The notes under the pieces: model-generated
Database searches by the model: none
What the model was told of the DNA's origin: nothing
Seen by the model: only the letters and a program-made list of their open reading frames with translations
Position numbers and translations under genes: made by a program
Assembly: GCA_021107855.1 (NCBI GenBank)
Contig: JAIORZ010000002.1
Span: 181,425 to 245,424 of the forward strand
Length of the DNA: 64,000 nucleotides
Direction: 5' to 3'
From: an archaeon
GTDB lineage: Archaea > Nanobdellota > Nanobdellia > Pacearchaeales > GW2011-AR1
Part shown: positions 1,540 to 6,360 of the stretch, in pieces
Numbering within the stretch: position 1 is the stretch's first letter
Layout: every line of letters begins with the position of its first letter

Positions 1540-1598
1540 CCCAATAATACCATACTACACTAAATAAAACTTTTTATAAGAATTCCCCAAGTAACTAC

Positions 1599-2564
1599 AT
1601 GAACGGCAACCCAAGAATCAACTTCAACACCCTACTTAAAACATATAATGTAACAGTCTGGGACACCTGCGCGATTCTCCAATATCTCGATAAAACAAAA
1701 GACCCCGTAAAAGACCCCTCATTTATGGGAAAACTGGCAGAAAAAATAAAAGAAGGACACATATGTGTTATACCCCAAGCAATTATAAAAGAACTAGAAA
1801 CACACAAGCCAATATATTTTACAGGACGGAAGAACAAAGAAAAACTAATAGAAACATACAACAACTTCTACCAAAAAAACCAACTCTATTTAGACGAGCA
1901 AAAAGTAGAAAAAGAGATTGCCAAGGAATCCATAAAATATGCCTGGCACAAAATATCCTACCCAGATTTAGCAGTCTTCGAACACGCAAAAATTTTCAGC
2001 GAGAAAAGAATCCCAACAGCAATAATTTCAAACGACATGGGATTAAGTAAAGTCTGGAATGAATATGTAAAAGAAACCAGAACCCCAAACTCAATTCTAG
2101 GATTTCTCCCAAGACTAGAAGGACTCCTTTTTGAATTATTCCAAAATAGGATGAAGAGAGGTAAGAATCACATATTAATAAACGACCGCGTAACAATATT
2201 AGACGACATAGAAAAATGGAGAAAAGTTACCACAAATAACCTATCCCATTATGGATGTAATAAAATAACCTACTTCAAAAACAAAAACAACATCATAGAA
2301 ACATACCAATCAAATAATATCCAAACACCAAATATTGCCTTTTTGGATATAAATCTAAATCCAAAAGACCCTCAAAACAAAGAAGGACTAAGGGTCTGTC
2401 AATTCTTCAAAGAAACTATCCCAAACACAACAATAGTAGCAATGAGTTCCCTAGAAAACATAGCACAAGAAGCCAAAAAAAGCGGAGCAAATTTCATCAT
2501 ACAAAAAAAGAACTTCGTCCAAGATTTCGACACATTTGTTCAACAATACACGGAAAGATTATGA
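1599..2564 (+). CDS. PIN-domain nuclease fused to a C-terminal response-regulator receiver-like domain
   Basis: PIN acidic residues in VWDTCAIL, IKELE, YPDLAVFEHAKIF, ISNDMGLSK; C-term IAFLDINLNP...GLRVCQFF..IPNTTIVAMSS..IAQEAKKSGANFIIQKK matches REC beta3/beta4/beta5. Confidence 0.7.
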   Translation: MNGNPRINFNTLLKTYNVTVWDTCAILQYLDKTKDPVKDPSFMGKLAEKIKEGHICVIPQAIIKELETHKPIYFTGRKNKEKLIETYNNFYQKNQLYLDEQKVEKEIAKESIKYAWHKISYPDLAVFEHAKIFSEKRIPTAIISNDMGLSKVWNEYVKETRTPNSILGFLPRLEGLLFELFQNRMKRGKNHILINDRVTILDDIEKWRKVTTNNLSHYGCNKITYFKNKNNIIETYQSNNIQTPNIAFLDINLNPKDPQNKEGLRVCQFFKETIPNTTIVAMSSLENIAQEAKKSGANFIIQKKNFVQDFDTFVQQYTERL

Positions 2565-3031
2565 TAAACCTAATGAAGTATACCTACCTAATGCAAACAG
2601 ACAAAATAGACAAAGAACTCACCCGCCTCTGGGAAAGATACCAAAAAATTCTAGACAACCCAAATTCAACATGGGAAGACACCAACGAAGCAAGAGCAAT
2701 CCTCTTCATGACGGGAAATCTATACCTCGAACAAATCTCAACAGAAGCAATCGAAAAAAGACTAAAACATCTTGAAAAAGATTTCAGAATTATAGAATTT
2801 CTCCACATAATAGATTCTGAATCTCCACGATTAAAAGAACTAAGAACATGTCCCAAATTCAAAGAACTAGAAACATTCTACCGCATAATAAAAAAACACA
2901 AAAACAAACACACCAAAGGTAAATTTTATCTAGACGAAGAAAGATTTATACAAAGATATAGAAAATTAAGTCCCGATAAAAAATCCAAAGTAGGATATAA
3001 AGGATATTTTGACAAACACTTTCTCGACTAA
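2561..3031 (+). CDS. hypothetical alpha-helical protein, translationally coupled to the PIN-REC gene
   Basis: ATGA 4-nt overlap with the preceding gene. Confidence 0.65.
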   Translation: MINLMKYTYLMQTDKIDKELTRLWERYQKILDNPNSTWEDTNEARAILFMTGNLYLEQISTEAIEKRLKHLEKDFRIIEFLHIIDSESPRLKELRTCPKFKELETFYRIIKKHKNKHTKGKFYLDEERFIQRYRKLSPDKKSKVGYKGYFDKHFLD

Positions 3032-5176
3032 CTAAGAATGCTTACTCCTCTTCAACAACTCCTTCAACCTCGCCGCATCCCCGCTCCTATCCTTAATCTC
3101 GCCAACAACATAAGTCGCATTCTCCCCAATCTCCTTCCCCTTCTTCACCTTCAAGTCCCGCAACAATTTCTTCCTCACAACATCCGACACAATAACCTTA
3201 GCAGAATCAATATCACTCATCCTCTTCGCAAAAGAAATCGTATTCCCAATACTCGTATATTTCAACTTATCCTTCTCTTTCGAAGCCACCAAATCCCCAG
3301 CATGAACTCCAACTCCAAAATCAACCTTATCCTCAAACTTTTTATTATACACTTCCAATTTCTTGACAATTTTCATTCCACACCGAGTCGCCAAAATCTC
3401 ATTCCCATAAGTCCGCGTAATAAGTGGGTTAAACACAACAAAAATATAATCCCCCCTCCAATCAATCACTCCCTTCCCTTTCGCATCATCAACAATTTTT
3501 CTCAAAGCCTCTCTCCCCGCATCGCCCAAATCCCCATGATTCTTAATCCCAACAGAAACAACACCAGACACTTGCTTCTCACCCTTCAAAACCAAAGCAG
3601 ATTCCGCTTCCATCTTTTCCTTCCGAGTAAAATCAACCATCGTCTTATCCTCATGACTATAATTCTTCACATCAAGACCCTGAACCGCAGGCGATTTATG
3701 TGTAAAATTCAAACTATCATCCATATGCGACTTAACCCCATTAGGAACCCCCTTCTTAACCTTCTTCCCAATATGCGCCCTAGCCCGATGCAATTTCGCC
3801 ACCTTCCTCCTCCAGGGGAACTTATTCGCAACCTTCATAATCTTAGCCTTCCACCCCTTAGCAAATTTAATAGTCCTCGTCTTCCTATATTTCATCAACA
3901 AAACCACCCCAACTCCCCCTAAAATCAAAATCAAAAAAATATAAACAACAGGATATCTAAAAACCCCACCATTCCCAAAATCCTTAAGCGAAATCGCATT
4001 CCCTGTCAACAAAACCTGCCGACTAATAGAAGTCTCCCCGTCATCAATCAGAACATCATACTCACCATTCGGCGCACCAACCTTGAACTTCCGAATTTCA
4101 CCAGCCCCAATATTCAACTCCAACGTTATTATCTCATCCCCAATAGTAACATCAATCGTCCTATCGTACAAAACATTCCCAACATTTCTCACACTCAAAA
4201 TCGAATCCTCAAAATCGAACACAACTTTCTGCAGACCTGCCATCTCAAATTCCCGAACCTCTTCCAAATCATCAAACGAGCCAACTATCCTCCAAACACC
4301 AACACTTGAATTCAAAGCAAAATCAATAGCACTAAATTCCCCAGCCTGAACAATCGCATCAACCACATCACCATCCGGAGAAATAATTTTCAAAGAAACA
4401 AGTCCGCCCATTTCAACACCTGACTGGTCAAAAGCCTCAATCCCAATCGTAAAATTTTCTCCAGGAGTAGCCACCACGTCGGACAAACTCATAATCAAAG
4501 AAGTCGCAATCTGATTCACCTCGTACGAAACGACACCCTCCCCAGAATTCAAAACACCATCCTTTCCAGAATCATAAGCACGAACCGTCAAAATATAGGT
4601 CCCAGCCTCTGCCGTTTCCGGAATAACAAAACTCTCACTCACCTTTCCCTCTTCAATAGCCTTAGTAAAAGAACTAGCATTCAACCCCTCGACAAACCCA
4701 TCCAACTCTACCCCATTCTTCTTAACAGCCTCAATATCAACACTAACACTCTCACCAGGATTATACGAAGTCCTATCCAAAGAAACACGAACAATCACAT
4801 CATCACTTATATCAAAAATTTTAGTAGACGCGACATCCGACCCTAAAGACGAAACAACCTGACAACTCCCAATAATTCCCTTCAAATCCAGAATCTCCAA
4901 ATCCTCTCTATCTAAAATCTTATACGGAATAGAATAACTCTGATCCTCATCAGCCGAAAAAGCCCGAGCCGAAATCCTCACCAAATTAATCGAACTATTC
5001 CCACAAACCAAATCAATATTCAAGTTCCCATTACTCGTCCCACGCAATCCCTCAACCTCAATATACAACCGGTCTCCCAAATTATAAACATCCATCGGCT
5101 CACTAATCGAAATATCCGCCAAGACCCCATACCCCATCAGAACAACCAACAGCAACACTAACCTTCTCATACCCAA
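3032..5176 (-). CDS. membrane-anchored protein: signal peptide, Ig/CARDB-like repeats, TM helix, C-terminal class III nucleotidyl cyclase-like domain
   Basis: N-term hydrophobic signal; TM FRYPVVYIFLILILGGVGVVLLMKY; C-term VDFGVGVHAGDLVASKEKDKLKYTSIGNTISFAKRM resembles cyclase FGIGI..GE...YT.IGD.VN.A.R. Confidence 0.65.
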   Translation of the reverse strand: MGMRRLVLLLVVLMGYGVLADISISEPMDVYNLGDRLYIEVEGLRGTSNGNLNIDLVCGNSSINLVRISARAFSADEDQSYSIPYKILDREDLEILDLKGIIGSCQVVSSLGSDVASTKIFDISDDVIVRVSLDRTSYNPGESVSVDIEAVKKNGVELDGFVEGLNASSFTKAIEEGKVSESFVIPETAEAGTYILTVRAYDSGKDGVLNSGEGVVSYEVNQIATSLIMSLSDVVATPGENFTIGIEAFDQSGVEMGGLVSLKIISPDGDVVDAIVQAGEFSAIDFALNSSVGVWRIVGSFDDLEEVREFEMAGLQKVVFDFEDSILSVRNVGNVLYDRTIDVTIGDEIITLELNIGAGEIRKFKVGAPNGEYDVLIDDGETSISRQVLLTGNAISLKDFGNGGVFRYPVVYIFLILILGGVGVVLLMKYRKTRTIKFAKGWKAKIMKVANKFPWRRKVAKLHRARAHIGKKVKKGVPNGVKSHMDDSLNFTHKSPAVQGLDVKNYSHEDKTMVDFTRKEKMEAESALVLKGEKQVSGVVSVGIKNHGDLGDAGREALRKIVDDAKGKGVIDWRGDYIFVVFNPLITRTYGNEILATRCGMKIVKKLEVYNKKFEDKVDFGVGVHAGDLVASKEKDKLKYTSIGNTISFAKRMSDIDSAKVIVSDVVRKKLLRDLKVKKGKEIGENATYVVGEIKDRSGDAARLKELLKRSKHS

Positions 5177-5241
5177 AATACGCTCTCCTACTATATAAAT
5201 ATTATGAACAAATTTATAAATCTCCCGTTACTGTCTTTACC

Positions 5242-6360
5242 ATGACAAAAACAAAAGTCAATCCCTACGAAGTCCAAGGCGAAATCAACTACGACCGATT
5301 AATCAAAGAATTCGGCATAAAAAAAATCGACAAAGAACTTTTAACCCGAATCAAAAAAATCACAGGCGAAATCCACCCTTACCTAAGACGAGAAATCTTC
5401 TTCGCACACCGAGACCTCGAAAAACTCCTAGACGCATACGAATCAGGACAAAAATTCTTCCTCTACACGGGGTGCGGACCATCAGGACCAATCCACCTAG
5501 GACACTACTCCGTCTGGAGCTTCGTAAAATGGCTACAAGACAAATTCGACGTCGAACTCTGGTTCCAATTCACAGACGATGAAAAATTCCTCTACCTAAA
5601 AAACAAAACATACGAAGAAATCCAAGATTGGACAAAACAAAACATGTTAGATGTAGCAGCACTAGGATTCAACCCAGAAAAAACCCACTTCCTAATCGAC
5701 ACAAAACACGCAGACATAATGTATCCCGAAGCAATCAGGGTCGCAAAAAAAATAACATTCTCAACAATTAAAGCTTCATTCGGATTCACAGATTCAAACA
5801 ACATTGGCTCAATCTTCTACACAGCAATGCAAACCGTCCCAATCTTTCTACCAAATGTCCTCAACAAAAAATCGGAATACTGCCTAATCCCACTAGCGAT
5901 AGACCAAGACCCACACTTCCGAATCTCCAGAGACGTAGTTCAAAAACTCGGTCACAAAAAACCCACAATCCTACACGCAAAATTCATGTCACCCCTAACA
6001 GGAGCCACCGGAAAATCAAGCAGCTCAAATTCCTCAAAAACAATCCTCATGACAGACTCCCCTTCCACAATCAAAACCAAAATCAACAAATACGCATTTT
6101 CAGGCGGACAAGAGACAACCGAAGAGCATCGGAAAAAAGGCGGAAACACAGAAACAGACGTCGCATGCCAATGGCTAAAATATTTTGAATGGGATGACGA
6201 AAAATTAGAAAAAATATACAAAGAATACTCCTCGGGCAAACTCCTCTCAGGGGAAGTTAAAGCAATTCTAATCGAGAAAATAAATGGAATATTGTCAGAA
6301 CATCAAGAACGTAGAAAAGATGCAGAGAACCAATTAGATAAATTTATTTTTAAAAGTTAG
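5242..6360 (+). CDS. trpS: tryptophanyl-tRNA synthetase
   Basis: GCGPSGPIHLGHY (HIGH region), GATGKSSSSNSSKTI (KMSKS-equivalent), archaeal/eukaryal TrpRS architecture. Confidence 0.92.
   Translation: MTKTKVNPYEVQGEINYDRLIKEFGIKKIDKELLTRIKKITGEIHPYLRREIFFAHRDLEKLLDAYESGQKFFLYTGCGPSGPIHLGHYSVWSFVKWLQDKFDVELWFQFTDDEKFLYLKNKTYEEIQDWTKQNMLDVAALGFNPEKTHFLIDTKHADIMYPEAIRVAKKITFSTIKASFGFTDSNNIGSIFYTAMQTVPIFLPNVLNKKSEYCLIPLAIDQDPHFRISRDVVQKLGHKKPTILHAKFMSPLTGATGKSSSSNSSKTILMTDSPSTIKTKINKYAFSGGQETTEEHRKKGGNTETDVACQWLKYFEWDDEKLEKIYKEYSSGKLLSGEVKAILIEKINGILSEHQERRKDAENQLDKFIFKS

Follow-up and report, generated by a model that had tools for sequence, protein, structure and literature searches.

Receivers usually control DNA binding, second-messenger enzymes or protein contacts, and the locus studied here raises the question of whether a receiver could also control a nuclease. 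We addressed this question for a predicted PIN-REC protein and its overlapping partner gene, both of which are encoded near one end of the window, that is, the whole 64,000-nucleotide stretch of archaeal DNA that was analysed.

Organization of the locus

Two open reading frames were found on the forward strand, as given in the preliminary description of this DNA. The first is the PIN-REC gene (1599-2564, +; 321 aa), and the second (2561-3031, +) encodes the partner, a protein of 156 aa that is predicted to be all-helical and belongs to a family not described before. The partner gene starts within an ATGA sequence (2561..2564, +), in which the stop codon of the PIN-REC gene overlaps the partner start codon. 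A TATA-box-like element read from the sequence (ctttttataa, 1570..1579, +) lies 20-29 nt upstream of the PIN-REC start codon, a putative promoter position that would fit what is expected of a leaderless archaeal transcript. The convergent neighbouring gene (3032-5176, -) encodes a predicted membrane protein of 714 aa, which carries a C-terminal stretch like class III nucleotide cyclases (PF00211, E=0.0015, below the cut-off) and also an MG2-like stretch.

The PIN and REC halves of the fusion protein

The N-terminal half of the protein, residues 1-181 (1599..2141, +), was assigned as a PIN domain from its conserved acids and its match to Pfam PIN_4 (PF13638; residues 20-149, 7.8e-7, 29.9 bits against a cut-off of 21.9), and the same family was recovered at 2.4e-6 when this half was searched alone. 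The four PIN acidic positions previously noticed here were confirmed as D22 (1662-1664, +), E65 (1791-1793, +), D123 (1965-1967, +) and D146 (2034-2036, +), all of which are invariant in 12 of 12 members of the PIN family, namely the window protein and 11 stand-alone proteins. An active PIN nuclease would be expected to show such an invariant quartet. The structural model of this half falls partly below a pLDDT of 50, and the top Foldseek rows of the fusion model are receivers; the best PDB profile match of the PIN domain, the HARP protein-only RNase P (7e8k), is weak (E=0.09).

Stand-alone relatives of the PIN half were found within the window's family and class, forming a divergent archaeal family that mostly lies below Pfam detection. 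In nine genomes these relatives adjoin a RadB-like gene (G286, G361, G292, G276, G395, G355, G467, G232 and G429), and an Nre gene follows directly, or one gene on, in seven of the nine loci, RadB and Nre having been identified by Pfam in one locus and by similarity in the remaining loci. The order RadB-PIN-(one gene)-Nre is kept in this archaeal family (L089, L092, L093, L098, L100, L022 and L024). RadB and Nre work in DNA repair in Haloferax (PMC7776575), and the gene context of these loci may link the PIN family to the same process. At the RadB locus of the window's own genome (L085), neither PIN nor Nre adjoins RadB, which is consistent with, and no proof of, relocation of the PIN gene from that locus. 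Two PIN-like proteins of different type are encoded a short distance apart near GyrB in genome G249 (L094, 142-786 and 1483-2133, -).

The C-terminal part of the protein (2181..2552, +) was assigned as a REC domain from Pfam, Foldseek and residue conservation. The HMM search that had been proposed as a check returned Response_reg (PF00072; residues 198-305, 6.7e-8) above its gathering score, with 33.1 bits against 30.2. Structure prediction, the other proposed check, gave a REC half of high pLDDT with the (beta-alpha)5 fold of receivers, for which Foldseek retrieved many solved receivers at target-normalised TM values of up to about 0.8. Because both domains score above their Pfam cut-offs, the PIN and REC assignments are not chance resemblance. 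The C-terminal position proposed for the REC domain was upheld, whereas its length had been put at ~90 residues and proved to be about 125. This difference also bears on the acidic pair, which had been reported as not obvious: D202/D203 (2202-2207, +; motif ILDDIE) were found ~20 residues upstream of ITYFKNKN, and the pair had been missed because the domain start was placed too late, at that segment.

Together with this pair, the phospho-acceptor D250 (2346-2348, +), S283 (2445-2447, +) and K303 (2505-2507, +) make up the five active-site residues, all of which are present both in the window REC and in three other RECs encoded beside partner genes. Since none of the five is missing, the window REC is, as far as its sequence tells, a receiver and not a pseudo-receiver by the definition supplied in PMC12632262. 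It has a longer loop behind the phospho-Asp (DINLNPKDPQNKEGL) and has lost the Pro after the conserved Lys, and both the long loop and the missing Pro also occur in its REC relatives. Similar RECs with different neighbour genes are present in genomes G138 and G162.

A divergent type of REC, cRec, has been described with a proposed cyclic-phosphate role in conflict systems (PMC7824862). An enzyme of this type, processing cyclic phosphate ends and paired with a nuclease, would agree with the divergence of the window REC and with the fact that no kinase was detected, but the window REC scores as a normal Response_reg with a full Ser/Lys site, and no NAD/ADPr genes were noticed beside it. PIN enzymes, moreover, generally leave 5'-phosphate/3'-OH ends, and we regard a cRec-type activity as extremely improbable.

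Origin of the PIN-REC fusion

The fusion junction (2142..2180, +) was delimited by the ends of the stand-alone PINs, near residue 181, and the starts of the stand-alone RECs, near residue 185-190; the fusion thus corresponds to two complete stand-alone proteins placed nearly end to end. An internal ATG is located at 2151, and there are stops in both other frames (a TAG, and a TGA overlapping the ATG), so that a single-base indel separates the fusion from two adjacent genes for PIN and REC. Judging from this arrangement of frames, the fusion probably arose through a one-base indel, and an assembly error would leave the same picture.

A profile covering both halves was searched against 383 genomes of the class, and both halves were matched only in the window's genome, all remaining matches being to PIN alone or REC alone. 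Among all 207 genomes of the order, the fusion is likewise limited to the window's genome, and a PIN-REC scan of genome contigs gave no match. This restriction to one genome, and the stops lying exactly at the junction, with the TGA overlapping ATG 2151, could mean that there is no true fusion, the PIN-REC frame being an assembly error or a recent neutral indel and the true or ancestral layout consisting of overlapping PIN, REC and partner genes. Assembled MAGs rarely contain indels, however, and the indel would need to hit a stretch of about 12 bases; homology also reaches the junction from the PIN side and resumes there on the REC side without a change of frame. We consider an artefactual or neutral origin improbable, and it looks as if PIN had been fused to REC in one lineage only, onto an existing pair of REC and partner.

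The helical partner and its linkage to receivers

The earlier view of the second gene product as a helical protein translationally coupled to the first agrees with its AlphaFold2 model, which is all-helical (pLDDT 82.9), and with the ATGA overlap. Pfam gave no match for the protein, and neither PDB nor viral folds gave a significant one. Profile searches placed the partner in 12 genomes, including G575, in which it was recognized in the sequence that follows a REC match; three further weak matches were left out of this count. Within the order, it was found in eight of 207 genomes, all of them in the window's family (the copy in G457 is a fragment), and it also occurs in other families (G392, G102, G525 and G575). 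Most homologues in other DPANN genomes are 52-56% identical, and the distribution is patchy even between close relatives, a pattern pointing to gain and loss or to horizontal transfer.

A REC gene of one divergent type lies directly upstream of the partner gene in four genomes from two families (the window's genome, G458, G468 and G575). The junction between them is an ATGA overlap in the window and G575, a longer overlap in G468 and a gap of 13 bp in G458, and the stand-alone RECs of the last three genomes are 133-147 aa long. The four partner-linked RECs show 31-45% mutual identity and <30% identity to other RECs. No REC adjoins the partner in 7 of the 11 partner loci with readable neighbours, and one origin of the REC linkage could not be told from several in a tree of 11 partners. 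These comparisons of sequence and gene order identify REC plus partner as the conserved unit, with the partner also existing without a REC of that type, and REC plus partner looks like a real regulatory pair. The proposal of a two-component module consequently survives for REC and partner, in four genomes and two families, but not for the PIN fusion, which is confined to the window's genome. No relative among the searched genomes keeps the partner beside a fusion, but three of them keep it beside a REC.

At locus L080, a REC of the same extended-loop type as the window REC (4913-5314, +) is followed, with an ATGA overlap, by a gene for a different protein of 329 aa without a Pfam match (5311-6300, +), possibly a second pair of REC and partner. 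Another stand-alone REC (ITDGAMPEYDG; L043, 2410-2859, -) adjoins a 128-aa gene on the contig of G457 that ends in the partner fragment. In three genomes, a TrmB-like regulator gene lies close to a REC or partner gene (L019, 4485-5198, -; L080, 4130-4849, -; L079, 6377-7114, +); such genes may simply be common here.

The other partner genes have diverse neighbours, including a Pop5-like (RNase P) gene, PsmA and SBDS in G223, RNase J in G470, a PIN-domain gene in G102 (Pfam PIN below cut-off), an ABC transporter and a DUF192-like gene in G474, and HAD and GNAT genes in G525. A dedicated RNase P or RNase J component was considered and rejected, since the Pop5-like gene and RNase J were each found in one genome (G223 and G470) and unrelated neighbours elsewhere. 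Kinship with DUF89 damage-control phosphatases was also set aside, because the matches are weak, well below cut-off and restricted to a helical stretch (NCBIfam 3e-4 at best, in three of nine members; PDB 2g8l, E=0.03). A defence or phage origin was discarded as well, with no strong PADLOC or PHROG match; tblastn against phages and plasmids gave no match, nor did the viral fold search with the partner.

PIN domains are common as toxins (VapC), and the short overlapping operon and the patchy distribution of the partner would suit a toxin-antitoxin-like unit in which the PIN domain is an RNase toxin and the partner its antitoxin. Against such a unit, a PIN gene is missing beside most partner genes, as is a partner gene beside the nearest relatives of the PIN half; that half falls into the RadB-linked family, and no strong match to defence models was obtained. 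We judge this interpretation to be very improbable.

A proposed receiver-controlled nuclease

The domains, the catalytic residues, the gene order and the conservation of REC with partner were observed, and from them we infer the physical binding, gating, RNase activity, substrate and phosphodonor of the following model. We tentatively propose, as the most parsimonious explanation, that the locus is a response-regulator-like switch with a nuclease output, consisting of a receiver-gated PIN domain and a receiver-binding partner. Its base unit, which recurs in several DPANN archaea, would be a divergent, phosphorylation-competent receiver co-produced with a small helical protein, its probable binding partner. 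A PIN gene from an otherwise stand-alone family, found at the side of RadB (and Nre), would have been attached N-terminally to this receiver in the window's lineage. Phosphorylation of the Asp, or binding of the partner, would then let the receiver control or localise cleavage by the PIN domain, whose substrate may be RNA or a structured or single-stranded nucleic acid, and the partner would serve as adaptor or regulator. Phospho- or ligand-gating of the predicted nuclease is plausible.

The source of the phosphoryl group could be a kinase that escaped detection, or a small phosphodonor. In the window's genome (~85% complete), a scan for histidine kinases found none, GyrB being the only HATPase_c match; the scan was not exhaustive, and the parallel scan for REC domains overlooked the one in the window. 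A bacterial-looking histidine kinase occurs in G458 (L044) on contig C12, which is perhaps contaminating. The REC could alternatively be a docking platform, a constitutive module that tethers PIN to the partner, with the partner targeting RNA or a complex and phosphorylation being vestigial. The outcome of the kinase scan is in line with docking, as are the aromatic switch position, which is I300 in the window REC and F in its closest relatives, and the Pop5-like, RNase J and PIN-domain genes among the partner's neighbours elsewhere. Docking alone, however, would not demand the five phospho-chemistry residues that are kept in four divergent RECs, and we think it unlikely.

The receiver-gated switch can be extended to a phosphorylation-gated ribonuclease accompanied by an undescribed receiver-binding helical family whose members would work with interchangeable receivers in DPANN archaea, an extension that we regard as doubtful. 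If true, an RNase under direct receiver control would link a signal to the decay or processing of RNA by a short route. The REC and its helical partner, for their part, offer a defined complex, open to experiment, in a group of archaea whose genomes are very small and in which few signalling systems are known.

Comparison with known systems

The term 'PIN' is absent from the main text of a census of archaeal two-component systems (PMC5847659), and a PIN-REC fusion is not described in the available parts of the open-access literature naming a PIN domain together with a REC or receiver domain. The pair of REC and helical partner is undescribed in the searched libraries and the open-access literature, and is the better-supported novelty compared with the PIN output.

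A small helical protein encoded beside a REC recalls HPt proteins, but we rejected this identity for the partner, as its homologues have no invariant His and no HPt match in Pfam. The locus resembles VapBC in that a PIN protein is encoded in a short operon of overlapping genes; it differs in that the partner family is mostly without PIN, only one separate PIN neighbour (G102) having been found among the other partner loci, and in having a RadB-linked PIN half and an extra REC. The stand-alone RECs of G458, G468 and G575 are comparable with the CheY-type REC-only proteins of archaea, although they are paired with a helical partner gene and not with chemotaxis genes. With PIN-domain nucleases (PF13638), the window protein shares the four invariant acids and the PIN_4 match, whereas its PIN domain belongs to a divergent RadB-linked archaeal family and is fused to a receiver. 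With response regulators (PF00072), it shares the complete receiver active site and the receiver fold; unlike them, it carries a PIN output N-terminal of the REC, has no cognate kinase nearby, and shows an extended post-Asp loop and no Pro after the conserved Lys. On this comparison, we class the locus as a response regulator whose output, the PIN domain, is unusual.
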